From the NCBI GenBank assembly GCA_016191815.1, contig JACPVI010000061.1:124001-188000 (forward strand): a DNA stretch of 64,000 bases. Reading direction: 5' to 3'. A program made the position numbers and the translations under genes. Shown here one piece after another: positions 3,938-21,216 of this stretch (position 1 is its first letter; each line of letters starts with the position of its first letter). The notes under the pieces are model-generated. The model searched no databases. It was not told the DNA's origin and worked only from the letters and a program-made list of their open reading frames with translations. The DNA is from Myxococcales bacterium. GTDB taxonomy: Bacteria; Myxococcota; Myxococcia; Myxococcales; Myxococcaceae.

Positions 3938-5002
3938 ATGCGAGCTTTGGTCACCGGAGCAAGTGGTCACGTCGGCGCCAACCTGTGCCGCGAGCTGCTC
4001 GCGCACGGCCACCAAGTGGCGGCGTTCGTGCGGAAGACGTCGGACCTGCGTGGCCTGGAGTCGCTCGACGTCGAGTACCGCCACGGCGACATCCGCGACG
4101 CGGAGGCCCTGCAGCAGGCGGTCCAGGGCTGCGATCTCGTCTTTCACACCGCCGCCGTCTACGACCTCGGCACTCGGACCACCCGCGCCGAAGAGGTGAC
4201 GGGGCCGGCCCTGGAGGGAACCCGCAACGCCATCGCCGCTGCCGCCAAGGCGGGGGTCAAGCGCGTCGTCTTCACCAGCTCGGTGATGGCGGTGGGTAAC
4301 TCGCGCAGCCCGGAGGTAATCCTCGCCGAGAAGGATTGGAACCAGGAGCAGAACACCCCCTACGAGGTCGCCAAGGTCGAGTCGGAGCGAGAGGCCTACC
4401 GGCTGGCCGAGCAGCACGGCATCGAGCTGGTGGTGACGGTGCCGGCGGGCCTGCTCGGCCCCTATGACTACCGGCTCACCCCTTCCATGGGGCTGTTGTG
4501 CGATCTGATCAACGGAGATGCAGTCCTCGGCTCGGGCGGGGCTCCCTGGGTGGACGCCCGCGACGTCGCCCGCGGCCACCTCCAAGCGGCGAGCAAGGGC
4601 CGCGCCGGAGAGCGCTACATCCTCGCCGGCGAGGGGGCGAGCAACCGCGACTGGATGCGGGAGCTGGGCGAGGCCAGCGGGAGCTCGCCCCGGTACCTGC
4701 CCTTGCCGCGCGCTTTGGCAATTCCGAGCGTGGCCATGCTGAACGGATTCTTGCACCTCCTCGGGAGAACCCCGCAGCTGACCACCCAGTGGGCGCGGGC
4801 GGGGGCGGGGCGCTACTGGTACTACGACTCCTCCAAGGCGGAGCGAGAGCTCGGCTGGACGCGCCGCGAGCGCCGCCAGATGTTTCTCGACTGCGCCCGC
4901 TGGCTCGCCTTCACCGGCCGGCTCAAGCCCAAGATCGCCGGGCCCTTGCTCGCGACCCACCCGCCCGACCCGGAATGGAGCCGCCCTTCGCGCGCCCGAT
5001 AG
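3938..5002 (+). CDS. NAD(P)-dependent epimerase/dehydratase, dihydroflavonol-4-reductase-like extended SDR
   Basis: A 354-aa extended short-chain dehydrogenase. The N-terminal nucleotide-binding motif TGASGHVGANL is at residues 6-16, the TSSVMAVG strand carries the catalytic Ser region, and the active-site pair is Tyr142 and Lys146 in YEVAK. The length fits the family (about 320-360 aa). Such enzymes reduce ketones or aldehydes, or epimerise sugars, with NAD(P)H in the cytoplasm. It converges on the acyl-ACP reductase operon, whose last gene ends at 5019, so an aldehyde or keto-lipid substrate is possible but only an inference. It starts with an ATG after GGAACGAACCA, without a strong ribosome site. 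Confidence 0.85.
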   Translation: MRALVTGASGHVGANLCRELLAHGHQVAAFVRKTSDLRGLESLDVEYRHGDIRDAEALQQAVQGCDLVFHTAAVYDLGTRTTRAEEVTGPALEGTRNAIAAAAKAGVKRVVFTSSVMAVGNSRSPEVILAEKDWNQEQNTPYEVAKVESEREAYRLAEQHGIELVVTVPAGLLGPYDYRLTPSMGLLCDLINGDAVLGSGGAPWVDARDVARGHLQAASKGRAGERYILAGEGASNRDWMRELGEASGSSPRYLPLPRALAIPSVAMLNGFLHLLGRTPQLTTQWARAGAGRYWYYDSSKAERELGWTRRERRQMFLDCARWLAFTGRLKPKIAGPLLATHPPDPEWSRPSRAR

Positions 5003-5011
5003 CTGCGGGTG

Positions 5012-5028
5012 GGGCGCCTCAGGCGCCC
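5012..5028. terminator. Hairpin between convergent genes, possible bidirectional terminator
   Basis: A perfect 7-bp stem (GGGCGCC / GGCGCCC) with a 3-base loop. The loop (5019-5021) is the stop codon of the minus-strand reductase gene. There is no T-run on either side, so intrinsic termination is uncertain. Confidence 0.4.
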
Positions 5029-7193
5029 GCGGGAAGGGAAAACACCAGCCGGCTGCGCTCGCCGCCAGGGGACCTTTCGATGGCTTCGAGCAGCGTCGCC
5101 GCGCCTTGGCCCGCCAGTGGCTCCAGCAGGTGGATGACGGTTGAGATCGCCTTCAATCCCTCGAGTGGCTTCTCCTCGAGGCTGGGCCGGGCCCGCTGCA
5201 CCAGTGCTTTGGCCCCGGCGTCGCCGGTGTGGGGCAGATAGACCAGGAACTTCGCCGGCGAGACCCGGCAGCCGAAGTCGTCGCTGCGAGTGAGCGAGAC
5301 CAGCGCCGAGGTGAACTCCGCCAGCGCCAGCTCCGAGGGCGGCGAGTCGCCCTGCCACTCCAGGCAGATCTCCAGGATGGAGCATTGGAGCTTGTGGCGG
5401 CGAGCCCGGTTGAGCTCGGCGTCCATCCGCGCAATGAATTCCGCAAGCGGCACCAGCCGGGTGTTCCGTCCGGAAGAGATGCGCGCGCCCTGCTGGGCGC
5501 TGCGCACCATGATCGCGGCGTTGCGCGACAGCAGGCTGAGAAGCGCAAGGTCCTGCCCGGTGAAGACTTCTCCTTCGCCGAGCCGGTTCAGCACCTGGAT
5601 GGCGCCTATGGCCCGGCCTATCCCCGGCAAGGGGCTGCAGATCATCGATCGGGTCTGGAAGCCGGTCTGCTTGTCGGCGCTCGAATTGAAGGCGGCGTGC
5701 GCCCGGGCGTTCGAGACGATTTGCCCGATCCCGCCGGAGATCACCTCGCCGACGATGCCGGTGCCAATGGGGACGCTGAAGCGGGCGAGCTGCTCTCCCG
5801 CCGGGCCCACAGAGGCCTCGCAGACGATCCGTTCTCCGTTGGCGTCCACCAGCCACAGCGAGGCCGCCTCCGCCTTGAAGGCCCGCACCATTCGCCGGAG
5901 CAGTTGCCGGAAGAACCCCACCAGGTCCGCGCTGGCGTCGATGGCCTCGGCCAGCTCGTCCAGCATGGTGAGCTGGGCCAGCCGCTGGCGGAATCCGCTC
6001 CGGACCAGCCGCAGCTGGATGTCGGCGTCGCCGATGGGCTCCCCGAAGGAGCGCAGGTGGGCCAGCTTGAAGCCGTGCCTGGCCGCCACGGCGCTCAGCT
6101 TCTGCACCCGCTCGGTGGAGAAGTTGACGATCTCCAGGCCGCGCTCTCGCTCGTTCTCGAGAGCCAGCAGCATCGTCTCTCCGATGCACGCATAGACGAC
6201 GCCGGGCGGCACCCCGTAGTAGGGGTGCATGGTGCGGGCGGTGAAACCGCCGGGAACCTCCACCAGCCCGCCGTCGATCACCAGCACGTCGTCGCGCGCC
6301 GAGGCCACGTCGCGGCTGACGTTGGTGGGCCTGGAGACGTCGCAGACCACCGAGCCGGTCGCGAGGTGGTGCGGGGCCACCAGCGCCTCCGGGCTGCTGG
6401 TGGCGAGCAGCACCACGTTGGCCTCCGAGAGGGCCTCCTGCAGGTCGGTGGTGACGTGCACCTCGCGCCCGGTCTCACGCCGGATCTTCTCCGCCTTCAG
6501 GGCCAGTCTCTCCTTGGTGCGCGCCACCAGGCTCAAGGAGCAATCGACGTTGCGGGCCAGGATTTCCGCGCAGACCCCTCCGATGGAGCCGGTGGCGCCT
6601 ACCACCGCGATGCGGCAGGAGCCGAGGTCGATGCCCATCTTCAGCGCGCCCGCCTGGACGCCTTCCAGCGCCATGGCTGCGGTCAGGCAGTTGCCGGAGG
6701 TGACGGTCAGGGCAAGCTGCTCCTGGAGCTGCATCGGAATGCCCGGCGGGAAAATGGAGGTGTAGCCACCCAGGCCGAGCACCGAGGCGCCCAGCCGCTC
6801 CGCCACGTGCCCCACCTGGACGATGCGCTGGGCCACCACCTTGCCCGGCAGGGTGAAGTGCTGCTCGGGAAGCAGCCAGGTGGAGATGAGGTAGCCCCGG
6901 ATCACGTCCCCGGTGTGGGACCTGATGTCCTCGATCACCGCGGTCACCTGCGGCGGAAGCCAGAGGAGCACCTTCTCCATGAACTCGCGCCGCGCCGGGG
7001 TCAGCTCCGAAGGAGACAGCAGCCAGCGCTCGATCTGTTCGGGCAGCGTCCGGAGGTAGTCCAGGACCTCCGCGGCCTGAGTCCATTGCGGAGCCAGGCT
7101 CTCCAGCTCCTCGTAGCGCTCGCAGAGGAAGGGAACGCAGTGCAGCGCCTCGCGCGGCGTGGCGGCGTTGTAGGCCCACGCAAAGGTCCTCAT
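5019..7193 (-). CDS. Acyl-ACP reductase (AAR-like) fused to GAF and degenerate GGDEF-like domains
   Basis: A 724-aa protein with an ATG at 7193 that shares ATGA with the stop of the upstream fabZ-like gene. Residues 1-380 resemble cyanobacterial long-chain acyl-ACP reductase, which reduces acyl-ACP to fatty aldehyde with NADPH. It has the LGLGGYTSIFPPG segment (138-151), LTVTSGN (162-168), the Rossmann motif VVGATGSIGG (197-206) and Cys336 in VYACIGE, where the family has its acyl-thioester cysteine. Residues about 415-565 look like a GAF domain. Residues about 575-710 follow a GGDEF fold outline (RSDDF...R...F..YLP), but the signature loop reads SPAKF, so cyclase activity is not expected. 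Cyanobacterial AAR is about 340 aa, so the C-terminal half is an added sensory module. The reductase call is good; the chain length and use of the aldehyde are unknown. Confidence 0.8.
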   Translation of the reverse strand: MRTFAWAYNAATPREALHCVPFLCERYEELESLAPQWTQAAEVLDYLRTLPEQIERWLLSPSELTPARREFMEKVLLWLPPQVTAVIEDIRSHTGDVIRGYLISTWLLPEQHFTLPGKVVAQRIVQVGHVAERLGASVLGLGGYTSIFPPGIPMQLQEQLALTVTSGNCLTAAMALEGVQAGALKMGIDLGSCRIAVVGATGSIGGVCAEILARNVDCSLSLVARTKERLALKAEKIRRETGREVHVTTDLQEALSEANVVLLATSSPEALVAPHHLATGSVVCDVSRPTNVSRDVASARDDVLVIDGGLVEVPGGFTARTMHPYYGVPPGVVYACIGETMLLALENERERGLEIVNFSTERVQKLSAVAARHGFKLAHLRSFGEPIGDADIQLRLVRSGFRQRLAQLTMLDELAEAIDASADLVGFFRQLLRRMVRAFKAEAASLWLVDANGERIVCEASVGPAGEQLARFSVPIGTGIVGEVISGGIGQIVSNARAHAAFNSSADKQTGFQTRSMICSPLPGIGRAIGAIQVLNRLGEGEVFTGQDLALLSLLSRNAAIMVRSAQQGARISSGRNTRLVPLAEFIARMDAELNRARRHKLQCSILEICLEWQGDSPPSELALAEFTSALVSLTRSDDFGCRVSPAKFLVYLPHTGDAGAKALVQRARPSLEEKPLEGLKAISTVIHLLEPLAGQGAATLLEAIERSPGGERSRLVFSLPAGA

Positions 7194-7624
7194 GCCGAGC
7201 CCACCTGTCCGAAGGAGAGCCTTCCGGAGGCGACTTCGACTTCGCCGACGCGGCAGACCACCTCGGCGATCGCCGCGGTGCTCACCACCTTGTCGGCTTT
7301 GGCGGTCACCACCAGCTGATCCCCGGGCCGCACGGGAGAGCGGAAACGGAAGCGCTCCACCCGGCCCAAGGCATAGAGGGGCTTGGGCGAGGGGTGGCCC
7401 GCGAGCATCATCAGGCAACAGGCCTGCGCGGCCGCCTCGATCATCAGCACTCCGGGCATGAGCGCCCGCCGGGGAAAGTGACCCTGTACGAAGGGCTCGG
7501 TCCCAGTCACGTTCTTCAGCGCAGTGATTGACTGTCCCGGAACCACTTCCACTGCGCGGTCAATCAGCACGAATGGGTAGGCATGGGGAAGCAGCGCGCA
7601 GATCTGGTCGAAATCGAGGGTCAT
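7190..7624 (-). CDS. fabZ: 3-hydroxyacyl-ACP dehydratase, FabZ-like hotdog protein
   Basis: A 144-aa protein from the ATG at 7624 (MTLDFDQI). Family hallmarks are HAYPFVLIDR with the catalytic His, GHFPRRALMPGVLMIEA with the catalytic Glu, and a following AAQ. It would dehydrate 3-hydroxyacyl-ACP to trans-2-enoyl-ACP. The stop overlaps the start of the acyl-ACP reductase (ATGA), so the two are translationally coupled. An ACP gene lies 204 bp upstream in the same direction. This looks like a dedicated copy for a specialised acyl chain, not the housekeeping fabZ, which usually sits with lpxD/lpxA. An upstream in-frame ATG at 7666 adds 14 residues that look unrelated to the family. Confidence 0.87.
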   Translation of the reverse strand: MTLDFDQICALLPHAYPFVLIDRAVEVVPGQSITALKNVTGTEPFVQGHFPRRALMPGVLMIEAAAQACCLMMLAGHPSPKPLYALGRVERFRFRSPVRPGDQLVVTAKADKVVSTAAIAEVVCRVGEVEVASGRLSFGQVGSA

Positions 7625-7828
7625 CCAGTTGCTCCGGGAGCTTTCAGAGCGTCGGGCATCCGTCAACGACCGATCCCGGCCCCGTCACGCAGGCCGACCC
7701 GAGTGCCGCGGTGAAGAGAACAGCCGAAGTCAACTCTCCGGGCCCGAGGTACTTCACGAAGTTTGCCGCAGCGGCCTCGCCCTCGGCCCGCCCGCACCGG
7801 CGAACCTTTCGCCCACGGCCACCGGCGG

Positions 7829-8083
7829 TCAGCTACCGCGCTGCGCCATGTACTTCTGCGCGACGGTGATCGATTGCCGCAAGCTGGTGAGCTCCTTGAG
7901 GTCGCGCTCCTCGAGCTTCACCTTGAAGGTCTTCTCCACTTTCGCGGCGATCTCCAGCAGCAGCATCGAGTCCAGGTCGAGCTCCTTGATGAAGTGAGCG
8001 TCCATGGTCACCGCCTCGGGCTCGATCTCCGCGGCCTCGGCGATGATTTTTCGCAGTGTGTTGGTGACTTCGTTAGTGTCCAC
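7829..8083 (-). CDS. Acyl carrier protein
   Basis: An 84-aa acidic protein. The GTG start at 8083 is preferred because GGGAGG lies just upstream on the minus strand. The phosphopantetheine attachment motif is LDLDSMLLLE, with Ser in DSM. It would carry the acyl chain as a thioester on the 4'-phosphopantetheine arm. It heads a same-strand set with the FabZ-like dehydratase and the acyl-ACP reductase, so it is probably the dedicated carrier whose acyl group those enzymes process. A longer reading from 8137 adds residues unlike ACP. Confidence 0.9.
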   Translation of the reverse strand: MDTNEVTNTLRKIIAEAAEIEPEAVTMDAHFIKELDLDSMLLLEIAAKVEKTFKVKLEERDLKELTSLRQSITVAQKYMAQRGS

Positions 8084-8277
8084 GGTTCCCTCCCAGGAAC
8101 CGCACCACTCTGTCACCGATCGGCGCGGTCCGTCCACCGTCTTCTGTCGGAGGCGAGACGCTGATCGCCCGCAGGGTCGCTCACCGGCGGGACGGCTCTG
8201 CGTGAGCGGAAAGCAGCCCTCGCGACTTGATGGTAACCTCCAGCCGCCATGAAGCCGACCTTCGAAAGGGACCGATC
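8084..8277. promoter_or_regulatory. Divergent intergenic region upstream of ACP operon and the 8278 gene
   Basis: These 194 bases separate the ACP operon (minus) from the next gene (plus) and should hold both promoters. On the plus strand TTGATGGTAACCTCC (8227-8241) lies about 40 bases ahead of the start at 8278. No clear inverted repeat was found. Confidence 0.35.
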
Positions 8278-8751
8278 ATGGCGGAGCTCCCGCTTCCCAG
8301 ATTCTCGGAGATCATCGCCCGCAGTATCGCCACCGCGACGTTCGTGGACACGGTGGAGCTGCTGTTCAAGGCGCTAGCGGAACGTGCCGACTCCGAGGAG
8401 CTGCGTGAAGTGCTCTACCGCGCCTTCTACGAGCGCGGCAAGCGGCTGGGAGAGAAGGCGCCGCTCGAGCGGCTTGGCTTGAGCTCCGACGCGATGGGCA
8501 TCGCCGTCTTCCCCCACCTCTCGGACGAGGGGATGCAGATCGAGGGCACCATCGTCGAGGCCAGCCCGACCAGGGTCGTGAAGGAAGTCACCAAGTGCCC
8601 GATGCAGCACATTTCCGCCGACCTGTGCCACGCCTATGACGGAATGATGCTGGGGATGGTGGAAGGGATGAACCCCGCCTACAAGTGCTCGCTGCCTCAG
8701 TGCCTCTCTCGAGGCGATTCCGTTTGCCGGGTGGTGGTCGAAAAGAAGTGA
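8278..8751 (+). CDS. Small Cys-containing protein resembling the ATC-hydrolase-like / V4R-like family
   Basis: A 157-aa soluble protein. The start at 8278 has AAAGGGA upstream. The N-terminal half is helical. The C-terminal half carries CPMQHIS, then CSLPQC, then a final GDSVCRVVV. This spaced-cysteine pattern is seen in the L-2-amino-thiazoline-4-carboxylic acid hydrolase-like family (PF14196) and related small-molecule or metal-binding domains. It has no signal peptide or membrane segment. It is divergent from the acyl-ACP reductase operon and could sense a metabolite for it, but that is only context. The family call is tentative. Confidence 0.55.
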   Translation: MAELPLPRFSEIIARSIATATFVDTVELLFKALAERADSEELREVLYRAFYERGKRLGEKAPLERLGLSSDAMGIAVFPHLSDEGMQIEGTIVEASPTRVVKEVTKCPMQHISADLCHAYDGMMLGMVEGMNPAYKCSLPQCLSRGDSVCRVVVEKK

Positions 8752-8757
8752 GCCGGG

Positions 8758-8776
8758 GGTTGAGGTCGCCTCACCG
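8758..8776. terminator. Short hairpin between convergent genes
   Basis: TGAGG-TCG-CCTCA at 8761-8773, slightly extendable on both sides, overlaps the stop codon of the oxidoreductase gene and lies 10 bases after the stop of the plus-strand gene. No T-run follows. It is a weak terminator candidate. Confidence 0.3.
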
Positions 8777-11044
8777 GGGCCGCAGCCGCACGCGGACGTT
8801 CTTGTGGTACGGCGTGGCCGTGAGCGGATCGCAATGTGCGGCGTCCGTGAGCAGGTTGAGCATCGGGCCCGCGGCGCGCCGGCCAGCGTTTCCGTCGGGG
8901 TAGTCATTGCCATACCCGTGTGGGAGCGAGACCACCCCGCGGAGCAGCGTATCGTCGAGCGCTACGCGAACCGGGATTTGGCCGCGCGAGGACTCGCAGA
9001 CGGCCGTGGCTCCTTCCGCTAGTCCGAGTTGCCGCGCGTCTTCGGGGTGGATGCGGAGCGCTCCGTCCCCGTCGGTCTTCCGCCAGCGCGGGTCGCGGAA
9101 GATTTGGTTCGCGTTGTAGGACCGGCGATCTCCGGCGATGAGCGTGAGCGGGAACGCAGCCGCATTCGCGGGCTCCGGCTCGCTTCGCAACGCGCGCAGC
9201 GCATCCAGCATCTCGGGGACGTCGAGGTGGATGCGCCCGTCGGCGTGACGGATCACCCTCCACATCTCGCCATGCTCGTGGGTGCTGATCCGGGCGCCGC
9301 TCGGGCTCCCGAGCAACCGCGCGAACAGGGCTTCGCCCAGCTGGGCGCCGTTTCCGGAGAGCCCTGTGCGCCGCACGGCCTCCGCGTGGCGCGATGCGTA
9401 TTGCTGCGCCGCCGCCCAGAGCGGCGTGGTGGCAGCGGCTCCCTCCGGCAGCACTCGCCCCAGGGTGTCGTAGAGCACGAACGCCGCGTAGGGGCCCAGG
9501 CGGGGGCGGAGCTTGAGCGTGGCCGCCAGGGCCGCCGGAAACAGCCGCCGGCTCAGGCGGGCCACCCCCCGCAAAAGCGGAAAGCCTCCCCGGGGCAGCT
9601 TGCCCATGGCCACGAGGAGTCGCCGATATATCTCGGGTTCCGGCAAGGTCCCCGGGTGGGCTCCGAAGAGAGGGCGGCGCAGCTGGGCGACCTGCGTGGG
9701 GAACTCGAGCTGGAAGAAGGACGTCTCCCATTTCTCGAACTGGGAGGAGGCCGGCAGTACGTAGTGGGCCATCCGGGCGGTCTCGGTGAGGGCCACGTCG
9801 ATCACCACCAGCAACTCCAGCTTCGAGAGGGCGGCGCGGTAGGCCTGGGTGTCGGCGCCCGTGAGGACGACGTTGGCGCTGTCCACCACCAGGGCGCGAA
9901 GGCGGCCGGAGTGCTCGGTGGCGATCTCCGCCGGCAACACGTTGGGCGGGAAGAGCTTGCCGATCTCCCGCACCCCGGTGACGGTCGTCGTCCAGCTCTC
10001 CTTCCCGGCTGCCGGATCGTCGGAGTGGCCCACCAGCGGCACGAAGAAGGTGTGAAAGGTGTTGCACCCGCGCCGGTTGAAGTGGCCGGGGACGAGGAAC
10101 AGCAGCTTCTCGAGGTAGGAGTTCAGGGTGCTGTGCAGGCTCTGCTGCAAGCCCAGGTCTACCCGCACCGAGGCGCTCTTCGCCCTCGCGATCAGGCGGG
10201 CCACTTTCACCACCTCCTCGGTGGCTATCCCCGCGCGCGAGGCGAACTGCTCCACCGGCACCTCGGCCAGCGCGGCTCGGACCGATTCGAAACCGCAGGT
10301 GCGGGCTTGGTGGAAGCTGCGGTCTTCCAGGCCTTCCCGCACCATCACCGAGAGCATCGCCGCCAGGAGGAAGGCATCGGTGCCCGGCCTCAGTTGCAGG
10401 TGGAGGTTGGCGAGCGCGGCGGTCTCGGTGCGGCGAGGATCGATGACCACCAGGGTGCGCGCGGGATCGCGGGAAATCGCGCGCAGCGTCTCGCGGGCGT
10501 TGCGGATGCCGTGGGCCTGCCACGGGTTCGTCCCGATGACCACCACCACCTCGGCGTGCTCGACACCCTCGGTGAGGTGGCAGCTCTGGCGCCCGAAGAG
10601 CCGGCCGTTGACCCAGAAGTCGCCGGTCTTCTCCTGGGCCATCGCGGTGTAGTGGAACCGCGTGCCCAGAGCCTGCACGAGCCCGCGGGCGTATATCCCG
10701 CCCAAGTGGTTTCCCTGGCCTCCGCCCCCGTAGAGGGCGCAGGCACGCGCGCCGTGGCGTGCGCGGATGTCCCGCAGCCGCTCGGCGACCTCCGCGATCG
10801 CCACCTCCCAGGAGACTTCCTCGTAGGAGCCGTCCACCCGGCGCCTGAGAGGCGAGGCGAGCCGGTCGGCGTGGTTCTGGTAGTAGTCGAGGCGGGCGGC
10901 CTTCTGGCACAGGTAGCCCTCGGACAGCGGGTGTGCCCGGTCGCCCCGCACGCGGGTGATGTGCCCGCCGTCCACCTGAACCTCGATCCCGCAGTTGCGG
11001 GAGCAGAGGATGCAAGCGGTGGGAAGCCACTTCGAGCTGCTCAC
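8771..11044 (-). CDS. Molybdopterin-dependent oxidoreductase (DMSO-reductase family) with N-terminal 4Fe-4S motif
   Basis: A 757-aa protein. The GTG at 11044 is chosen because AGGAGG stands six bases before it on the minus strand; the longer reading from 11086 has no such site. The N-terminus has an iron-sulfur motif (CILCSRNC followed by LCQKA) typical of formate dehydrogenase and nitrate reductase relatives. Further blocks fit the bis-MGD fold: VVVIGTNPWQAHGIRNA, VIDPRRTETA and, near the end, SLPHGYG and DPLTATPYHKN. There is no twin-arginine signal, so it is probably cytoplasmic. The substrate and electron partner are not shown by the sequence, and no iron-sulfur or membrane partner subunit is adjacent. 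Confidence 0.85.
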   Translation of the reverse strand: MSSSKWLPTACILCSRNCGIEVQVDGGHITRVRGDRAHPLSEGYLCQKAARLDYYQNHADRLASPLRRRVDGSYEEVSWEVAIAEVAERLRDIRARHGARACALYGGGGQGNHLGGIYARGLVQALGTRFHYTAMAQEKTGDFWVNGRLFGRQSCHLTEGVEHAEVVVVIGTNPWQAHGIRNARETLRAISRDPARTLVVIDPRRTETAALANLHLQLRPGTDAFLLAAMLSVMVREGLEDRSFHQARTCGFESVRAALAEVPVEQFASRAGIATEEVVKVARLIARAKSASVRVDLGLQQSLHSTLNSYLEKLLFLVPGHFNRRGCNTFHTFFVPLVGHSDDPAAGKESWTTTVTGVREIGKLFPPNVLPAEIATEHSGRLRALVVDSANVVLTGADTQAYRAALSKLELLVVIDVALTETARMAHYVLPASSQFEKWETSFFQLEFPTQVAQLRRPLFGAHPGTLPEPEIYRRLLVAMGKLPRGGFPLLRGVARLSRRLFPAALAATLKLRPRLGPYAAFVLYDTLGRVLPEGAAATTPLWAAAQQYASRHAEAVRRTGLSGNGAQLGEALFARLLGSPSGARISTHEHGEMWRVIRHADGRIHLDVPEMLDALRALRSEPEPANAAAFPLTLIAGDRRSYNANQIFRDPRWRKTDGDGALRIHPEDARQLGLAEGATAVCESSRGQIPVRVALDDTLLRGVVSLPHGYGNDYPDGNAGRRAAGPMLNLLTDAAHCDPLTATPYHKNVRVRLRPR

Positions 11045-11202
11045 GGCCGACCTCCTCACCTGTTCGACCGCTCCGCTATCTACCACACGCCACCTTTGAG
11101 CGAATGCCCTCGGGGTCGACCCCTCGGCCGACCGCTTGGCTCCGGTGAAGAACGTCGTCCGGTGCGCTCTCCCCGTAGAGCTTCAATGCGGTTGGATTCG
11201 GA
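11045..11202. promoter_or_regulatory. Divergent intergenic region before the kinase-cyclase gene
   Basis: These 158 bases hold promoters for genes on both sides. Near 11204-11213 GGTGTTACCAT resembles a -10 element only a few bases before the ATG at 11224, which would imply an almost leaderless transcript. No operator was seen. Confidence 0.3.
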
Positions 11203-14200
11203 ATGGTGTTACCATCGCGGGCCATGTCGGTTCCGGCGTCCGCCGCTTTGGAAGCGGCCCTGCCTCCACGGGAGCCGATCGGGGGGCGGTACCTACTCCA
11301 CGAGCAACTGGGGGCGGGGGCGATAGGAGTGGTGTACCGCGGGAGCGATCGGGAGCGGGGCGGGGAGCCGGTCGCAGTCAAGCTCATCGACCTCAGGGCG
11401 TTCGAGGCGCCCGACGACTACGCCCTGCAGTTCCGCCGCCACTCGCGGGCGCTGGCCAACCTTTCCCACCCGAACGTGGTGCGCACCCTGGACTTCGGGA
11501 AGTCCGGGCACCTGCTCTGGCTGGTGATGGAGCACTACCCGTCGGTGACGCTGCGGCGGTTCCTCTCCGAGCGCGGCGCGCTGGAGATTCCACTCGCCCT
11601 GGCGATCGTCGCGGAGACGGCGAAGGCGCTCGAGCACATCCACGGCTTCGGGCTCATCCACGGCGACCTCTCGCCGAACAACATCCTGGTGCGCTTGGAG
11701 GGCGAGCGGCCGCGGATCGCCCTCATCGACTTCGCCCTGGTCGCGCCGGATCAGCTCCTCCTCGAGGCCTCCGCCAACGGGATTGCCGGCACCGCCCACT
11801 ACATCGCTCCCGAGCAGACCGGCGGGGTGGACATGGGCGTCGACGGGAGGGCCGACCTGTACTCGCTGGGAGCCACCTTCTACGAGCTGGTGACGGCCGA
11901 GCGCCCCTTCACCGGGGCGAGCCTGAGCGAGATCCTCCACAAGCACCTGGTGGAGCGCCCCTCGCCCCCCTCCTCGCGGCGCAAGGAGCTTCCGGCCAGC
12001 CTCGACGCGGTGGTGCTCAAGCTGCTCGCCAAAGACCGCGAGGAGCGTTACCAGTCGGCCTCCGGGCTCTTGCACGACCTCTCCGAGGTCCAGGCCGCCC
12101 TCGAGCGGGGCGAGCAAGGGCCGATCGAGATCGGCCGTCAGGACTTCCGCCGCGACCTGAGCGCCCTCAACCAGCTCTACGGCCGCCAGGCGGAGGGTCA
12201 GCTCCTCCGCGAGTGGCTCACCGAGGCGGCCCATGGCCGCGGCGGGTGTTGCTTCCTCTTGGGGTCGCCCGGGGTCGGGAAGACGACCTTGGCGAGGGAC
12301 ATCGCCGAGCAGGCGGTGAAGTCGAACGGAGTCTACCTGGTGGGCAAGTGCGACCCGCTGCTCCAGGAGCAGCCGCTCGCCCCGCTCCAGGCGGCGCTGG
12401 GCACGCTCTTCCGGTCGGTGCTTTCGCGCCAGAAGGACCAGACGCAGCGAATCCTCAAGAGGCTGCGCGAGCAGGTGGGCGAGGTGGGGCAGGCGCTCGC
12501 GGCGCTCATCCCCGAGGCGGCGCAGGTCTTCCCGGGCGCGACCGAGGTGGGGGCGCTCGCCTCGGCGGAGGCCCAGAACATCCGCCTCTTCCTCGCGCTG
12601 GGGCGGGTGCTCAGGGCGGTCGGCGAGGAGGGCCGGCCGCTCTTGCTGCTGCTCGACGACGCCCAGTGGGCGGACTCCACCACCGGGGAGTTCTTGCCCT
12701 ACCTGCAAAGGAACGTCTCCGACGGCCACCTCTTGGTGCTGGTCACCTCCCGGAGCGAAGGCGGCGAAGTGGCCGGTCCCCTCGGGGAGGCGATCCGCTT
12801 CGCCGACGCCACGCGGACCCACGGCGAGGTGCTACACCTCGAGCCGCTCGACCGTCAGACGGTGGGGCTTTTGGTTTCCCGCCTGGTGAACGCCCACGAC
12901 CAGGAGCTGGCGACCCTCACCGACTGGATCTGGCGGCGCGCCAACGGGAACCCGCTCTTCACCAAGGAGGTGTTGAGGCAGCTCATTCGCGAAGGGGCAA
13001 TCTACGCGAGCGACCAGGGCTGGCAGCTCAAGGTGAACATGCTGGAGGGCATCCGGATCCCTCCCACGCTCACCGAGCTGCTGGTCAACAAGCTGGGCAC
13101 TCTTCCGCCGGAGCTCGGAAGCCTGCTCTCCACCGCGGCGGTGCTCGGGAAGGAGTTCTCGGCGGCGGCGCTGGCCCAGCTCACCGAAATGAACCCGGAC
13201 CGCCTGACCGACCTGATCGACCAGGCGACTCGCGAGGGGCTTCTGGAGCGGGCGGCGGGCGGCCACGCCTTCACCAGCGACCAGCTCCGCGACGGGGCCT
13301 ACAACCGGCTCGCCGCCGAGAAACGCGCGGAGACCCACCTCCGCATCGCGAAGATGCTCGAGCCTTTGCGCCGCAAGGGCTCCCTCTTGGACCAGGTCGA
13401 GGTCGCCCACCACTTCATCTTCTCTTTGGACGACGAGCGCGCCGCGGAGCACGCCCTCTTGGCCGGGGAGGCCTGCCTCAAGACGTACGCCAACCGCGAG
13501 GCAGTGCATTACTTCGAGGTGGCCCGGGCCAGGTCCAAGCAAGGGCTCACCCTCGCCGCCGCCGAAAGGCTGGGCGACGCCTACGCGGCCGCCGGCGAGT
13601 TCGCCAAGGCGGTCGAGCAGCACGAGCGGGTCCTCTCGCAGCTCTCCGGCGCGCTCGACCGCGCTCGGGTGATGGACAAGATCTGCAACCTCCTCGACCG
13701 CCAGGGGCGATTCCACGATGCGGCGCGCCTGGGGAACGAAGCGCTGAAGACGCTGGGCGTGAACTCGCCCAAGAGCAGGCTGGGGGTGCTGATCGGCATC
13801 GTGGGGTGGCTGGTGGTGGCGCTCATCGGGGGACGCTGGCCCTGGCTGCTGCCGCGCTTTCGCCGGAAGCGCGAGAAGCGGCTGATCGTGGGGCGCCACC
13901 TCGTGCGGCAGACCCATTCCTACTTCATGATCAACATGGAGCGGTGTACCTACTTCCACCTGCGAGCGCTGGTGCTGCTGCTGCGCCTGGGCCCATGCCG
14001 GGATCTCGCCCGGGTGATGGTGGAGCACGCCTACGTCGTCTGCACCGTCACGCGGATGAGAGGCAGGGCGAAGCGCTTCGCGAAGAACGCGGTGAAGATG
14101 GCTCAGTCGCTCAGGGACGGGGCCATGCAGTCGTACACGCGGGTCATCGAGGCGATGACCTACTACTTCATCGGCGAGCTGGACCGGGCCTTCGAGTTGC

Positions 14201-16482
14201 TCAACGCGTTCAACAAGGTGAACCAAGGCGTGGGCGACCTCTTTTGCCAGATCCTGGCCGACATCCACTTCGGATGGATTCACCGGCTCCGGGGGGACCT
14301 CAGCCAGGCGCGGCTGTACGCGGATCTGGTGCTGGCCAACGGCCAGCTCATCAACGACGACTTTTCGCGGGGAGTGGCCAGGTACATGGACGCCTTGGTC
14401 CGGGCCGCGCAGGGCGACACCCCCGCCGCGGAGGAGGCGGCGCAGGCCGGCCTGGCCCTCACAGCCCCGGACCCGCTCACCCACGCCGCCGCCTGGCGCA
14501 GCAGCGGGGTGGTGAAGCTCTTCCAGGGCGACCTGAGCGCTGCCGCCGAGAGCTTCCGCAAGTCGATGCGCGTGGCCTGGGAGAACTCCATCACCCAGGA
14601 GTACTGGGTCGAGGCCATCTCCGGCCTGGCGGAGGTGGCGGTGCTTCAAAGCCGCACCACCCACCCACCCGAGACGGCGGTCATCGGCCGCGCCCTTCGC
14701 CTGTGTCGGTATGCGCGTTGGGTGCCGCTGCTCTACCCCGCCTATGGGCCGGCAGCCTACCGGGTGAGCGCCATGGCCTACGCCGACAAGGGCGACCAGG
14801 GCCGAGCGCTGCACTTCCTCGAGCGGGCGATCTCCGAGGGCGCCCGGCTCGGGCTGAAGCTGGAGGTGGCGCGAGCGCACCAGCTGTGGGCAGACCTTCT
14901 GCCTGCCGAGGACCCGCGCCGCAAGATGTACTACTCCCTGGCGGGAGCGACCTACCGCCGGCAGGGAGCGGTGGGCCTGCTCCGGAGCCTTCCTCCAGAG
15001 CACCAGGCGGTGGACGACCGCTCCGGCTCCGGCGGCCGGAGCAACCTCGATCGCACCCAGCTCTTCGGAGCCAAGTCGCCGAGTTCCTCGGAGGGTGGCG
15101 GGGTCAAGAAGAGCAGCCTCACCCTCGATCGGCTGGTGCAGATCGCCCAAGAGATTGGCAAGCTGGACGAATCCGAGAAGCTCCAGCGGGAGATCCTCCG
15201 CGTGGCGGCGGAGCAGACCGGCGCCGAGTCGGGCTGCATCTTCCTCTACAACCCGGAGGAGGCCGAGTCGGACCCGGGCCTGCCCAAGGGACTGAGGCGG
15301 GTGGCCAGCTACGCCCAAGGCGAGGCGGCCCCGCCGGTGCCGAGCACCTCCGCCTTGGAGCAGGTCTTGAGAACGCGCAGCCCGGTGGTGGTCGGCGACG
15401 CTCAGGAGGACCTCTCCGGGGCGCGGAGCGTGATGCTGAGCAAGAAGCGCTCGCTGCTGTGCGCGCCGATGGTGGTGGGAGGCCGGCTGGCCGGGCTCAT
15501 CTACCTGGAGAACAACCTCCTCGCGCAGGTCTTCTCCGATTCCGACTTGGAGACGCTGGGGATTCTCTCAGCGCAGGGGGCGATCGCGCTGGAGAACTCC
15601 TCCTACCTCTCCAAGGTCCGAAAGGCGCACCGGAACGAGTACACCCTGCGGCGACTGTTCCAGAGCTATGTCCCGCCCGCGGTGGTGAACGAATTGTTGA
15701 GACGCGGCACCGAGAGCATGCTCAAGGGCGAGCGGCGGCTGGTGACGGTGCTCTTCGCCGACATCCGAGGGTTCACCGGCCTCTCCGAGGAGCTGGAGCC
15801 TGAGCAAGTGCTGGCTCAGCTCAACGAGCTCTTCGCGGCAATCACCGGGGTGATCCACGACTGCCACGGCATCATCGACAAGTTCATCGGCGACGCGGTG
15901 ATGGCGCTCTTCGGCGCCCCCCACTCCCACGGCAACGACGCCCTCAACGCGGTGGCGGCCGGGGTGCGGATCCAGGAGGCGGTAAGGGACATCAACGCCC
16001 GCAACGCGGCGGCCGGGCGGCGGCAGGTGGTGTTGGGAATTGGCATCAACAGCGGGGAGGCGGTGGTGGGGAGCGTGGGTTCCCAGCAGCGGATGGAGTT
16101 CACCGCTATCGGAGACACCGTCAACGTCGCCAGCCGGGTGGAGGCCACCACCGCCGTCTACCGCTCCGGAATCCTGATCACCGAACACACCCGCCAGCAC
16201 CTGGGCCAGGAGTTCGCCCTGCGCCAGCTGGACAGCATCCGAGTCAAAGGGCGGAACAAGCCCGTCAGACTCTTCGAGGTGTGGGGGAAGAGCGAGCAGC
16301 TGACGCCGGACCAGGCGGCGCTGATCACCCAATTCCAGGACGGTTTGACGGCCTACGAGCGTGCGGAGTGGAACGCAGCACGGCTGGCGTTCGAGCAAGT
16401 CATCCGCTCGCGGCCGGACGACGGCCCCGCCCACGTGCTCTTGCAGCGGATTCTCGACCAGCAGCATCGCGACGCCGGATGA
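11203..16482 (+). CDS. Giant signalling protein: Ser/Thr kinase-like, AAA ATPase, TPR, GAF and class III adenylate cyclase
   Basis: A 1759-aa protein (1752 if translated from ATG 11224). Residues about 28-300 are a protein kinase fold with Lys in VAVKLID. The catalytic loop reads HGDLSPNN (Asp155) and the metal loop reads DFA (Asp176), not HRD/DFG, so catalysis may be altered. The ATPase module has Walker A GSPGVGKTT (354-362) and Walker B LLLLLDDAQ near 482. A long TPR-like region follows, with a hydrophobic stretch (IGIVGWLVVALIGG) near residue 866. A GAF domain lies at about 1320-1470. The cyclase at about 1505-1665 has both metal Asp motifs and an intact NVASR. It is a full-length paralog of the truncated gene at 1-2061 and probably links a ligand signal to cAMP. 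A methyltransferase gene follows after 12 bases. Confidence 0.9.
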   Translation: MVLPSRAMSVPASAALEAALPPREPIGGRYLLHEQLGAGAIGVVYRGSDRERGGEPVAVKLIDLRAFEAPDDYALQFRRHSRALANLSHPNVVRTLDFGKSGHLLWLVMEHYPSVTLRRFLSERGALEIPLALAIVAETAKALEHIHGFGLIHGDLSPNNILVRLEGERPRIALIDFALVAPDQLLLEASANGIAGTAHYIAPEQTGGVDMGVDGRADLYSLGATFYELVTAERPFTGASLSEILHKHLVERPSPPSSRRKELPASLDAVVLKLLAKDREERYQSASGLLHDLSEVQAALERGEQGPIEIGRQDFRRDLSALNQLYGRQAEGQLLREWLTEAAHGRGGCCFLLGSPGVGKTTLARDIAEQAVKSNGVYLVGKCDPLLQEQPLAPLQAALGTLFRSVLSRQKDQTQRILKRLREQVGEVGQALAALIPEAAQVFPGATEVGALASAEAQNIRLFLALGRVLRAVGEEGRPLLLLLDDAQWADSTTGEFLPYLQRNVSDGHLLVLVTSRSEGGEVAGPLGEAIRFADATRTHGEVLHLEPLDRQTVGLLVSRLVNAHDQELATLTDWIWRRANGNPLFTKEVLRQLIREGAIYASDQGWQLKVNMLEGIRIPPTLTELLVNKLGTLPPELGSLLSTAAVLGKEFSAAALAQLTEMNPDRLTDLIDQATREGLLERAAGGHAFTSDQLRDGAYNRLAAEKRAETHLRIAKMLEPLRRKGSLLDQVEVAHHFIFSLDDERAAEHALLAGEACLKTYANREAVHYFEVARARSKQGLTLAAAERLGDAYAAAGEFAKAVEQHERVLSQLSGALDRARVMDKICNLLDRQGRFHDAARLGNEALKTLGVNSPKSRLGVLIGIVGWLVVALIGGRWPWLLPRFRRKREKRLIVGRHLVRQTHSYFMINMERCTYFHLRALVLLLRLGPCRDLARVMVEHAYVVCTVTRMRGRAKRFAKNAVKMAQSLRDGAMQSYTRVIEAMTYYFIGELDRAFELLNAFNKVNQGVGDLFCQILADIHFGWIHRLRGDLSQARLYADLVLANGQLINDDFSRGVARYMDALVRAAQGDTPAAEEAAQAGLALTAPDPLTHAAAWRSSGVVKLFQGDLSAAAESFRKSMRVAWENSITQEYWVEAISGLAEVAVLQSRTTHPPETAVIGRALRLCRYARWVPLLYPAYGPAAYRVSAMAYADKGDQGRALHFLERAISEGARLGLKLEVARAHQLWADLLPAEDPRRKMYYSLAGATYRRQGAVGLLRSLPPEHQAVDDRSGSGGRSNLDRTQLFGAKSPSSSEGGGVKKSSLTLDRLVQIAQEIGKLDESEKLQREILRVAAEQTGAESGCIFLYNPEEAESDPGLPKGLRRVASYAQGEAAPPVPSTSALEQVLRTRSPVVVGDAQEDLSGARSVMLSKKRSLLCAPMVVGGRLAGLIYLENNLLAQVFSDSDLETLGILSAQGAIALENSSYLSKVRKAHRNEYTLRRLFQSYVPPAVVNELLRRGTESMLKGERRLVTVLFADIRGFTGLSEELEPEQVLAQLNELFAAITGVIHDCHGIIDKFIGDAVMALFGAPHSHGNDALNAVAAGVRIQEAVRDINARNAAAGRRQVVLGIGINSGEAVVGSVGSQQRMEFTAIGDTVNVASRVEATTAVYRSGILITEHTRQHLGQEFALRQLDSIRVKGRNKPVRLFEVWGKSEQLTPDQAALITQFQDGLTAYERAEWNAARLAFEQVIRSRPDDGPAHVLLQRILDQQHRDAG

Positions 16483-17184: not shown

Positions 17185-18051
17185 TCAGAGCGGATAGATG
17201 GCCACGAACCGCTCACAGGTGCGGGCCGGGCTGATGCCCTCCACCCGGTGGTCGAAGCAGAGCTTGCCGTCGTGCTCGCAGCAGCGACTGTGCAGCCGGA
17301 ATGGCTCTCGGAACCAGAACGGCAGCTTCACGTCGACCGCGAAGACCGAGGGGACTCCCCTCCGGCAGGCGGCGAAGCGCTGGTAGCGGTCCGGGTGGGC
17401 CTTCCTCAGCTCGGACAGCAATAGCTCCTGGCCTTCCGCGGCGAGCTGGGGCGCGTGGTTCATGAACACCGCCATGTCGGTGAACTCGCACAGGTGGGCA
17501 GCGGCGGTCCGCTCAATCGCGGGCCCGTTGAACCACTCCGCGCCGTGGAGGTGACGCAGCTCGTGCTGGTAGCGCGCCCCGGCGAGGCGGTGGTCTTCCT
17601 CGAACTCGGTCACTCGCTGGGCGATCTTGGGCGAGAGCGGGCCGACGTGGGCCGCCCAGGTCTCCGGGTCGTCGATCTGCACCCCGGACATCGCCACCAG
17701 GGCCCTGGCGAAGCGCTCCTGCACCTTGCGGCCGCAGCGGTAGTAGGTGCACTCGAAGAGGAACTTCCGCTGGTTGTAGAGGGTCCAGCCGTCCAGCTCG
17801 ACGAGCAGGGTGCGGTCGTCGGGGAAGTTGAGGCGCCGGCCGGTCTGTTCGAGCACCACATGGAAGGGCTCGGCCATCACCCGGGTCTCCACCGCCAGCT
17901 CGAGCATCGGCCAGAGATTGCGCCGGCCCCATTCCTCCATGCCCTCGTAGCAGCGGTCGAGCAGCACGTGGGGGAGGACGTGGACGGAGGAGAAGTCCCA
18001 CGCCCTGAGCGAAGTGACGAAGTGGAAGGGCCGGCCGGGGACGGTAGTCAC
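17185..18051 (-). CDS. Conserved-looking protein of unknown function, coupled to a sulfur-carrier protein
   Basis: A 288-aa soluble protein that I do not recognise. The GTG start at 18051 lies directly against the stop of the MoaD/ThiS-like gene (TAG then GTG), so translation is probably coupled. It has several His, Cys and aromatic residues, including CTYYRCGRK, RYQHELRHLHG and CCEHDGKLCFDHR near the C-terminus, which could bind a metal or form an active site. It has no signal peptide, P-loop or membrane segment. By position next to a sulfur-carrier protein, a cysteine desulfurase and an activating enzyme it could be the sulfur acceptor enzyme or its substrate-binding part. That is inference only. 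Confidence 0.65.
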   Translation of the reverse strand: MTTVPGRPFHFVTSLRAWDFSSVHVLPHVLLDRCYEGMEEWGRRNLWPMLELAVETRVMAEPFHVVLEQTGRRLNFPDDRTLLVELDGWTLYNQRKFLFECTYYRCGRKVQERFARALVAMSGVQIDDPETWAAHVGPLSPKIAQRVTEFEEDHRLAGARYQHELRHLHGAEWFNGPAIERTAAAHLCEFTDMAVFMNHAPQLAAEGQELLLSELRKAHPDRYQRFAACRRGVPSVFAVDVKLPFWFREPFRLHSRCCEHDGKLCFDHRVEGISPARTCERFVAIYPL

Positions 18052-18321
18052 CTAGCCTCCCGCGACCGGGACGCCGACGCACAGCTCGACACCGTCGCTG
18101 GCCGGCTCCGAGAGCTTCTCCGCGGCGGTGACCTCGTCGTCCAGGAAGAAGGCCAGGTGGGGGCGCAGCTGCCCGCCCTCATAGAGGCGGTTGCGCAGCG
18201 CCGGGTAGCGGCCGGCGAGGCTCTCCAGGGCCGAGGCCGGAGTGGCCGCCTCGATGGTGAATTCGTTCTCGTAGCCGGTATCGCGTATCAGCGGGCCAAG
18301 CAGCTTGATGTTGATCTTCAT
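18052..18321 (-). CDS. MoaD/ThiS-family sulfur carrier protein ending in Gly-Gly
   Basis: An 89-aa beta-grasp protein from the ATG at 18321 (MKINIKLLG). It ends exactly in VPVAGG. The terminal Gly-Gly is the feature adenylated by a MoeB/ThiF-type enzyme and converted to a thiocarboxylate by a cysteine desulfurase. Both such enzymes are encoded divergently next door (18372 and 19684). The family supplies sulfur for molybdopterin, thiamine or special metabolites. No other thiamine or moco biosynthesis genes are nearby, so a dedicated pathway is likely. The next gene on this strand follows with no gap. Confidence 0.85.
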   Translation of the reverse strand: MKINIKLLGPLIRDTGYENEFTIEAATPASALESLAGRYPALRNRLYEGGQLRPHLAFFLDDEVTAAEKLSEPASDGVELCVGVPVAGG

Positions 18322-18371
18322 CCGCCCCTCGCAGGTGGGCGGCATCTTAGCCCACCCAGGCGCGAGCCCGG
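18322..18371. promoter_or_regulatory. Short divergent promoter region of the sulfur-transfer cluster
   Basis: Only 50 bases separate the two transcription units, which suggests joint control. GAGATGCTACC at 18396-18406 resembles a -10 element and would favour a start of the desulfurase downstream of 18372. Confidence 0.35.
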
Positions 18372-19691
18372 ATGCCATTGGCGGGAGCCGTTGGTGAGAT
18401 GCTACCTTCCCCCTGCGAGTTTGACCGCTTGGGCCTGACCTACCTGGACAACCACGCCACGACTCCCCTCGACCCTCGGGTCGCCCGGGAGATGGCGCCC
18501 TACCTCGCGGACGAGTTCGGCAACGCCTCCTCCAAGCACGCTCTCGGCATGAGGGCGGCGGCGGCGGTGGAGCGCGCCCGGGAGCAGCTGGCCTCTCTTC
18601 TCGGAGCGAGCCCCAAGGAGGTCGTCTTCACCAGCGGCGCCACCGAATCCAACAACCTGGTGCTCAAGGGAATCGCCGAGGCTTCGCGCGGACAGCGCGA
18701 CCACATCGTCACCGTCCGGACCGAGCACAAGGCCATCCTCGACGCCTGCAAATATTTGGAGAAGACCCGCGAGCAGCAGCTCAGAATGCTTCGCCCGCTC
18801 GGGCTCGCTCCCTCAGCCCTGGAAGGGCTCGAGCCTCAGCTTGCCGGGGCGCGGGTGACATACCTGGAGGTGGGCCGAGACGGCCGGATCGACCTGGGCC
18901 GCTTGCGCGAGGCGATCTCCCAGCGGACTTGCCTGGTCAGCGTGATGCTGGCGAACAACGAGATCGGAGTGCTCCAGCCAATCGCGGAGATCGGCCGGCT
19001 GTGCCGGGAGAAGGGCGTGCCCTTCCACACCGACGCGGCGCAGGGGCTGGGCAGGGTGGAGCTCGACGTGAAGGCGGCCGGGGTGGACTTCGTGTCGATC
19101 AGCGGCCACAAGATGTACGGCCCCAAGGGGGTCGGGGCGCTCTACGTGCGCGACGGGGCGAAGCTGCCTTCCTGCCAGATTCACGGCGGCGGCCATGAGC
19201 GGGGAGTCCGCTCCGGCACCCTGAACGTAGCGGGCGTGGTGGGGCTGGGCGCGGCGGCGGAGCTGTCTGGGCTCGAGCTGAAGTCCGAGGCGCCGCGGCT
19301 GCTCCAACTCCGCGAGAGGTTGACCTCCCGCCTGGAGGGCTCGGTGGAGGGGATCGTCTTCAACGGCGACCTCCGGCACCGGCTCCCCGGGAGCCTGAGC
19401 CTCACCGTCCCGCTGGTCGATTCCGAGAAGGTGATGGAGGAGCTGCCGGGGACGGCAATCTCGTCGGGAGCGGCCTGCTCCTCGCAGTCGCTCGAGACCT
19501 CGCACGTCCTCAGGGCGATCGGCGTCGGGCAGGAGGCCGCCCGCTGCACCCTGCGCATCGGCATCGGCAGGTTCAACACCGAGGAGGAAGTGGAGCGCTT
19601 CGCCCAAGAGCTGCTCTTGGCGATCGAGCGAGTGCGCAGGAGGCTGTCGGGCATGCCCCGCCGGCCGCGAGAAGAGGCCCGCGATGGATGA
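18372..19691 (+). CDS. Cysteine desulfurase, IscS/NifS class
   Basis: A 439-aa (or 430 aa from ATG 18399) PLP enzyme. Family blocks are YLDNHATTPLDPRV, EVVFTSGATESNN and SISGHKMYGPKG with the PLP lysine Lys247. The active-site Cys369 lies in SGAACSSQSLETSHVL, the loop that takes sulfur from cysteine as a persulfide. The loop is of the extended IscS kind. An insertion of about 30 residues after EHKAILDAC is longer than in classic IscS. It overlaps the MoeB/ThiF-like gene by 8 bases. It probably feeds sulfur to the MoaD-like carrier instead of, or besides, general Fe-S assembly, since no iscU follows. Confidence 0.9.
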   Translation: MPLAGAVGEMLPSPCEFDRLGLTYLDNHATTPLDPRVAREMAPYLADEFGNASSKHALGMRAAAAVERAREQLASLLGASPKEVVFTSGATESNNLVLKGIAEASRGQRDHIVTVRTEHKAILDACKYLEKTREQQLRMLRPLGLAPSALEGLEPQLAGARVTYLEVGRDGRIDLGRLREAISQRTCLVSVMLANNEIGVLQPIAEIGRLCREKGVPFHTDAAQGLGRVELDVKAAGVDFVSISGHKMYGPKGVGALYVRDGAKLPSCQIHGGGHERGVRSGTLNVAGVVGLGAAAELSGLELKSEAPRLLQLRERLTSRLEGSVEGIVFNGDLRHRLPGSLSLTVPLVDSEKVMEELPGTAISSGAACSSQSLETSHVLRAIGVGQEAARCTLRIGIGRFNTEEEVERFAQELLLAIERVRRRLSGMPRRPREEARDG

Positions 19692-20511
19692 AAGGAAGCT
19701 CCGGCACGCCCGCCAGCTCCAGATGCCGGAGATCGGCCAGGAGGGACAGGAGCGCATCCGCGCCTCCCGCGTGCTGGTGATCGGCTGCGGCGGCCTCGGG
19801 GCTCCGGTGGTGCAGTACCTGGCGGCGGCCGGCCCCGGCTCGCTCACCCTGGTGGATGACGACATCGTAGAAGTCACCAACCTCAACCGGCAGGTGTTGC
19901 ACCGGTCTGCCGACATCGGCCGCCGCAAGGTGGAGCGCGCCCAGGAGTGGGTGAAGTCGCTCGACCCATCCCTGGAGGTCCGGGCGATCGAGGAGCGGCT
20001 CGGGGTGGAGAACGCGAGGGAGATCATCTCCGACCACCAGTTGGTCGTCGACTGCACCGACGGGCTCACCACCAAGTACCTGCTCAACGACGCCTGCGTG
20101 CTCGAGGATCGCCCGCTGGTGCACGGGGCGGCGGTGGGCCTGAGCGGCCAGGTGTTGGTGGTGAGGGGCCGGAACGGGCCCTGCCTGCGCTGCATCTACC
20201 CGCGGATACCCGCCCGGGGCGAGGTTCCCTCCTGCCAGGAGGCGGGGGTTTTGGGAAGCACCACCGGGGTGGTGGGCGCCTTCATGGCCAGCGAGGCCTT
20301 GAAGGTGCTGGCGGGAGTGCGCGCGGCTCCTGCAAAGCTGTGGTCGTTCGATCTGCTCACGCCGCAGATCCGAGGGTTTTCGGTGCCCAAGCGCACCGAC
20401 TGCGCCGCCTGCGGCGAGAGCCCCAAAGTGGACGCCCGCTGCCGCGAGGACTACGAGGCGGCCGCGAGCTGCGAGCGGCCGGAGCCGCGGGCCGCCGGCA
20501 CCCGGACTTGA
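19684..20511 (+). CDS. MoeB/ThiF-family sulfur-carrier adenylyltransferase
   Basis: A 275-aa E1-like enzyme. The nucleotide-binding motif is VIGCGGLGAPV (about residues 33-43), with the arginine motif NLNRQVLH. Two Cys pairs for structural zinc are present (CLRC and CAAC). It would adenylate the C-terminal glycine of the MoaD/ThiS-like protein at 18052. The ATG lies inside the end of the desulfurase gene, so the two form one operon. It has no C-terminal rhodanese domain, so the sulfur must come from a partner, consistent with the desulfurase next to it. Confidence 0.9.
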   Translation: MDERKLRHARQLQMPEIGQEGQERIRASRVLVIGCGGLGAPVVQYLAAAGPGSLTLVDDDIVEVTNLNRQVLHRSADIGRRKVERAQEWVKSLDPSLEVRAIEERLGVENAREIISDHQLVVDCTDGLTTKYLLNDACVLEDRPLVHGAAVGLSGQVLVVRGRNGPCLRCIYPRIPARGEVPSCQEAGVLGSTTGVVGAFMASEALKVLAGVRAAPAKLWSFDLLTPQIRGFSVPKRTDCAACGESPKVDARCREDYEAAASCERPEPRAAGTRT

Positions 20512-20531: not shown

Positions 20532-20942
20532 TCAGGCTGCCTCGAACCAGTTCTCGACCTCGAGGAGCGGCACGCGCTCGAAGTGCCGGACGTTTCTCGT
20601 CACCAAAGCGAGCCGATGGGCGAGGGCGACGGCGGCGATGAGCGTGTCCTCCAGACCAATCGGGACTCCGCGCTTGACCAGCTCGGCAAGAAGGTCGCCT
20701 GCCTGCTCCGCCTCGCCTGGGCCGAACCCGAGGACCCGGACACGTGAGAGCACCTCCTCCTCGAGCCGCGCCCAGAACTTTCGCCGATCGGGCCGGCGCG
20801 CCGCCCCGTAGCGGAGCTCCATGACCGTGATGCTCGTGGTGAAGAGCTCGTCGGCCGGCGCCTCGGCGAGTCGCGCCATCAACACCGCGCTGGGCTCGCG
20901 CTTGATGACCTCCGAGAGAACGTTCGTGTCGAGGAGATACAT
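20532..20942 (-). CDS. vapC: PIN-domain toxin (VapC-type ribonuclease)
   Basis: A 136-aa protein. The acidic residues of the PIN active site are visible: Asp in LLDTNVLSE at the start, Glu in VMELRYGAARR, and Asp in GLEDTLIAA, with a late TRNVRHF strand. These nucleases cut RNA with Mg2+ when freed from their antitoxin. The ATG at 20942 is one base after the stop of the Phd-type antitoxin, the usual order. It appears complete and intact. Confidence 0.9.
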   Translation of the reverse strand: MYLLDTNVLSEVIKREPSAVLMARLAEAPADELFTTSITVMELRYGAARRPDRRKFWARLEEEVLSRVRVLGFGPGEAEQAGDLLAELVKRGVPIGLEDTLIAAVALAHRLALVTRNVRHFERVPLLEVENWFEAA

Positions 20943-20943
20943 G

Positions 20944-21216
20944 CTATTTGGCCGTCACCAGCCGCGGGCGGTGCTTCCCGCGAGCTTCCACGAGCCGAGC
21001 GATCTCCACGAAGAACCGGTCGTCCTTGTCCAGCCACCCCTTCGCATCCGCCAGCCGCGGGCGCATGACCTCCTCCCCTGCCGGGACCAGCCGCGCCATC
21101 GGGCGACCACGTCGCACGATGGTGATCCGCTCCTTCCCGTAGGCCACCCGGCCAAGCAGGTGCGAGAACTGGCGCTTCGCGTCCGCGACGCTGACCTCCG
21201 CTTCGCGTTTCTTCAC
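20944..21216 (-). CDS. Phd/YefM-type antitoxin
   Basis: A 90-aa protein with a GTG start at 21216 and AGGGGAAG just upstream. The N-terminus (VSVADAKRQFSHLLGRV...ITIVRRGRPMARLVP) is the classic Phd/YefM DNA-binding fold. The C-terminal part, rich in basic and acidic residues, would wrap the PIN toxin encoded one base downstream. Antitoxins of this type repress their own operon, and a perfect inverted repeat lies at 21231-21249. Confidence 0.87.
   Translation of the reverse strand: MKKREAEVSVADAKRQFSHLLGRVAYGKERITIVRRGRPMARLVPAGEEVMRPRLADAKGWLDKDDRFFVEIARLVEARGKHRPRLVTAK

Follow-up and report, generated by a model that had tools for sequence, protein, structure and literature searches.

A four-gene sulfur-carrier cassette with a family-unassigned putative partner protein in a Myxococcales bacterium

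Four genes spanning positions 17185-20511 of the window (the whole 64,000-nucleotide stretch of Myxococcales bacterium DNA analyzed here) bring together a sulfur carrier, a cysteine desulfurase, a MoeB/ThiF-like enzyme, and a 288-aa protein of no assigned family, with the carrier and 288-aa genes on the minus strand and the other two, divergently, on the plus strand. We put the probability at about 50% that they form a cassette dedicated to sulfur transfer, where sulfur from cysteine would reach the carrier as a thiocarboxylate that is then used or processed by the 288-aa protein. Should the latter indeed be the client, the four genes would be a self-contained unit of source, activator, carrier, and client, and the 288-aa protein a new enzyme that accepts sulfur or processes the carrier, offering a handle on a novel thio-product; should it not be, the locus is another instance of carrier-gene duplication in the large genomes of myxobacteria.

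IscS-type desulfurases hold cysteine sulfur as a persulfide, and MoeB/ThiF-type E1 enzymes adenylate the terminal glycine of a carrier for thiocarboxylate formation. Based on this known chemistry of the two families, the cassette desulfurase would form a persulfide with cysteine-derived sulfur, adenylation of the C-terminal glycine of the carrier would fall to the MoeB-like enzyme, and sulfur transfer would yield the carrier thiocarboxylate. The co-translated 288-aa protein would be the dedicated client, either a sulfur-accepting enzyme acting on a small molecule or a metal-binding processor of the carrier, a role that we infer solely from its position (gene coupling) and its Cys/His-rich sequence. 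A preliminary description of this DNA had proposed a sulfur-carrier cassette that may serve an undescribed thio-compound. The cassette portion of that proposal holds in that three of the proteins match known families; as for the product, no biosynthetic genes for a thio-compound or recognizable end product adjoin the four genes, and the cassette may feed sulfur into a novel product.

Layout and recognizable components

The features of the cassette are as follows:

17185..18051, minus strand: 288-aa protein, family unassigned, GTG start (open reading frame, coding statistics, no family or PDB match)
18052..18321, minus strand: MoaD/ThiS/SAMP-like sulfur carrier, 89 aa, C-terminus ...VAGG (profiles, PDB match, alignment)
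18052..18066, minus strand: 3′ end of the carrier gene, Gly-Gly codons and stop GGAGGCTAG, holding GGGAGG (sequence; putative function)
18322..18371, no strand: divergent intergenic region, 50 bp, or 77 bp with ATG 18399 as the desulfurase start
18372..19691, plus strand: IscS/NifS-type (class V) cysteine desulfurase (Pfam, NCBIfam; 58% identity to the other IscS of the genome)
19684..20511, plus strand: MoeB/ThiF-like E1 adenylyltransferase, 275 aa (Pfam, NCBIfam, nearest PDB structures)

Open frames were found for all four genes where the preliminary description had placed them, with secure desulfurase and ThiF-family profiles, and the start of the MoeB-like gene overlaps the end of the desulfurase gene by 8 bases. 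The same description had the two gene pairs separated by a 50-base divergent promoter; the gap is real (50 bp from the desulfurase start at 18372, 77 bp from that at 18399), and no sigma-70-like consensus was seen in the region.

The carrier frame as listed encodes 108 aa; translation more likely begins at the ATG at 18321, which gives 89 aa and is closely preceded by GAGGGG. As had been claimed, the protein ends exactly in Gly-Gly (...GVPVAGG), in alignment with the Gly-Gly ends of the other carriers in the genome. With the Pfam beta-grasp profile PF02597, the carrier reached 17 bits, short of the 22.5 cut-off, and is weakly ThiS-like by this measure; better matches came from the NCBIfam SAMP1 model (the best of its models; E 5e-7, 30 bits versus a cut-off of 60), the NCBIfam MoaD model (E 2e-4, below cut-off), and the structure of a Thermus 'MoaD related protein' (1v8c, E 3e-7). 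Judged by these matches, the carrier is probably a divergent member of the MoaD/ThiS family.

The desulfurase matched PF00266 (E 1e-80, 272 bits) and the NCBIfam IscS models (E 1e-128 or better, all below the model cut-offs). It displays the class V PLP fold, the PLP lysine (in the segment SISGHKMYGPKG), and the catalytic-cysteine loop (SSGAACSS) of the IscS/NifS enzymes, and shares only 58% identity with the housekeeping IscS of the same genome (contig C74), which counts in favor of a dedicated cassette. Its matches to DndA/SspA were weak, and weaker in kind than those to IscS, and no other phosphorothioation gene lies beside it, so a role in phosphorothioation was rejected.

The E1 likewise has the ThiF-family profile (PF00899, E 1.5e-77, 260 bits), a GxGGxG nucleotide motif (GCGGLG), and paired CxxC cysteines (CLRC and CAAC), and is devoid of a rhodanese domain. 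Pfam and NCBIfam place it with MoeB, ThiF, and UbaA (SAMP-activating enzyme model, E 4e-73, below cut-off), and the nearest solved structures are E. coli ThiF and MoeB. That the desulfurase, E1, and carrier are all present, compactly arranged, and retain their key motifs argues for the cassette reading, and pairing an E1 lacking a rhodanese domain with an IscS-type enzyme fits, by analogy, the E. coli MoeB scheme.

The 288-aa protein

Given that long antisense frames are common in a G+C-rich genome, we compared coding statistics across the 288-aa region using the codon usage of eleven window genes, including the two plus-strand cassette genes. The 288-aa frame scored 0.50 bits per codon, compared to −1.41 to −0.07 for the other five frames, with the overlapping antisense frame of 327 codons at −0.16. 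The GTG start is the base directly after the carrier stop codon, and GGGAGG, located at the Gly-Gly codons of the carrier 4 bases before this GTG, can act as a ribosome-binding site, whereby the two genes appear translationally coupled. In all likelihood, the 288-aa frame is a genuine gene that is co-translated with that of the carrier. Neighboring genes in a compact genome may adjoin by chance, which counts against the client role.

The protein was indeed as unrecognizable as originally described: Pfam returned no family at E up to 10 for the whole protein or its pieces, NCBIfam none beyond E 0.05, PHROGs and PADLOC none, and PDB sequence searches chance matches only; hence, no known unrelated family was found for it among those searched. 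A single-sequence AlphaFold2 model reached a pLDDT of 35.6 and was unusable. In composition, the protein stands apart from the fourteen other window proteins compared, with 15 His and 9 Cys (8.3% together, versus 1.7–5.1%), several of which are clustered at the C-terminus (H254, C257, C258, H260, C265, H268, and C279).

It also contains HELRH at residues 163–167 with a glutamate 22 residues further on (Glu189), an arrangement reminiscent of zincins. This motif would fit a second reading, a ubiquitin-like conjugation system of the SAMP/Urm1 type, in which the E1 would conjugate the carrier to proteins, from which the 288-aa protein, as a zincin-like peptidase, would remove or trim it, in the place usually held by a JAB peptidase. 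The SAMP matches of the carrier and E1 described above, both below cut-off, are consistent with such a system, as are the many carrier/E1 operons with a JAB peptidase covered in the passages of Iyer et al. 2006 (PMC1779556) drawn on here. However, residue shuffles of this His-rich protein yielded HExxH in 5.9% of cases and, when a Glu at a suitable distance was also required, in 5.4%, such that HELRH, expected by chance in 5–6% of shuffles, is a lead only. In addition, the protein matches no peptidase family in Pfam or PDB sequence, no homologues were found in which conservation of the motif could show, and a dedicated desulfurase points to sulfur delivery instead; we therefore regard conjugation as quite improbable. 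Somewhat less doubtful, though still unlikely, is that a new enzyme family begins with the 288-aa protein, which would take sulfur from the thiocarboxylate of its own carrier, or process the carrier in a zincin-like manner, towards an undescribed thio-compound or protein modification.

Other sulfur-transfer genes and known systems

Beyond the cassette, the genome encodes three other carriers: on contig C22, a ThiS whose gene overlaps that of ThiG; on C45, a SAMP1/CysO-like carrier in the vicinity of a JAB protein and a cysteine synthase; and on C53, a MoaD-MoaE fusion. The cassette carrier is thus, by sequence, the fourth in the genome, and the possibility that it is the sole MoaD, needed for molybdenum cofactor, does not hold. 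A rhodanese-MoeB (C81), a NifS-like protein (C75), and MnmA (C34) are also encoded, in addition to the housekeeping IscS. With separate carriers for thiamine, molybdopterin, and cysteine, plus the rhodanese-MoeB, IscS, and MnmA, the cassette set is additional. Two specific pathways were considered and rejected: tRNA 2-thiolation, already covered by MnmA, and the HcyS/HcyD homocysteine-forming system, given that HcyD (HcyBio, PF01837) had no match in the genome.

Redundancy of this kind bears on another reading, one we hold possible but less probable than a dedicated cassette, namely that the four-gene set is an accessory or backup to one of the ordinary pathways, those of cysteine, molybdopterin, or tRNA thiolation, and the 288-aa gene an unrelated neighboring orphan. 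The lack of relatives of the 288-aa protein is what would be expected of a lineage-specific orphan, and a molybdopterin-dependent oxidoreductase is encoded 6 kb away. The latter also qualifies the earlier claim that no thiamine or molybdopterin genes are nearby, which stands for molybdopterin biosynthesis genes, none of which lie near, but overlooks this enzyme (8771-11086, minus strand, with an Fe4S4 domain). Against a backup role, the genome already holds complete sets for cysteine, molybdopterin, and tRNA thiolation, a private desulfurase would be unusual for a backup, and the tight coupling of the 288-aa and carrier genes speaks against accident.

Like the CysO/CysM/JAB cluster on contig C45, the cassette has a MoaD-like carrier ending in Gly-Gly, an E1-like enzyme, and a coupled partner gene; however, it has a cysteine desulfurase and the 288-aa protein where the cluster has a cysteine synthase and a JAB peptidase, neither of which is found among the cassette neighbors, and the two carriers share 28% identity. 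The E. coli IscS-MoeB-MoaD route shares the IscS-type desulfurase, a MoeB without rhodanese, and a MoaD-like carrier, whereas the cassette adjoins no MoaE or other molybdenum cofactor gene, and a MoaD-MoaE fusion is encoded elsewhere in the genome. The carrier and E1 resemble the SAMP1/UbaA and Urm1/Uba4 modifiers in sequence, below curated cut-offs. In the thioquinolobactin/PDTC systems, according to the passages of PMC1779556 considered, a core of carrier, E1-rhodanese, JAB, and AMP ligase is described, with the carrier and E1 thought to form a thiocarboxylate for a secondary metabolite; the window contains no rhodanese domain, JAB, or AMP ligase. The same passages describe carrier/E1 operons with a JAB peptidase, cysteine synthase, or genes for siderophores or sulfate assimilation; a grouping of carrier, desulfurase, and E1 with anything like the 288-aa protein is absent from these passages, in a paper that predates most genomes.

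Occurrence and genomic surroundings

Among 195 genomes of the phylum, the 288-aa protein is present only in its own, and no relative was found in plasmids, phages, or viral contigs. A weak tblastn-level match in one genome (G083, E 0.006) fell in a frame with a stop, outside any predicted gene, and was dismissed as chance. A peptide-pattern scan of ~85,000 GTDB species with the 288-aa protein, which reaches close relatives only, gave no relative, and a second scan with carrier and E1 segments gave two distant E1 matches only. The pair of carrier and 288-aa genes was thus seen in no second genome across the phylum genomes, plasmids, phages, and pattern scans, and the four-gene arrangement is a singleton so far. 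Consequently, conservation, the main test of the link between the carrier and the 288-aa protein, is missing.

The individual components do have relatives, and the placement of these relatives favors the backup reading. The nearest carriers in the phylum (34–42% identity) all belong to cysteine-synthase/JAB clusters or ThiS/BNR-like pairs, and the nearest E1s (49–55% identity, family f25 in genomes G183-G186) adjoin FHA and histidine-kinase genes, a setting shared by the cysteine cluster of this genome; beside these E1s there is no carrier, desulfurase, or 288-aa gene. No phylum desulfurase matched the cassette copy better than E 1e-140, meaning that no orthologue was seen closer than approximately the genome's own IscS. 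A plasmid match in Streptomyces clavuligerus (33%) was without annotation.

A final reading, which we consider very unlikely, is that the cassette provides the sulfur of a small thio-metabolite whose biosynthesis is encoded in another part of the genome or by the acyl-carrier/oxidoreductase genes at ~2–9 kb of the window. One protein each of acyl-carrier type, with GAF/Shikimate_DH domains, resembling amine oxidases, and weakly resembling ATC hydrolase is encoded at 2162-8751. Separate supply is known for the sulfur carriers of natural-product pathways, as in the sharing of MoeZ and CysO, which provides a precedent. However, several kilobases and unrelated signaling genes intervene, and the arrangement was seen in one genome only.

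Within that region, the protein at 8227-8751 (plus strand) weakly matches PF14196 (L-2-amino-thiazoline-4-carboxylate hydrolase), below cut-off, and its gene is divergent to that of the acyl-carrier-type protein at 7829-8137 (minus strand); a GAF/Shikimate_DH protein (5019-7418) and an amine-oxidase-like protein (2162-4960) are encoded near this pair. Further along, a 1759-aa protein (11203-16482, plus strand) resembles, to judge from its sequence by eye, a serine/threonine kinase; its large middle is ATPase/TPR-like, another part is GAF-like, and the C-terminal domain looks like an adenylate cyclase. On its other side, the cassette directly adjoins a PIN-domain toxin and Phd/YefM antitoxin pair (20532-21216, minus strand).

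Across the myxobacteria, CysO-type clusters (L039, which is the C45 cluster of this genome, G000:C45, and L044, L049, L054, and L056) recur beside FHA/histidine kinase genes. Clusters of this set also adjoin genes resembling adenylylsulfate kinase and LarE/asparagine synthase, and a second, truncated E1 is often present.
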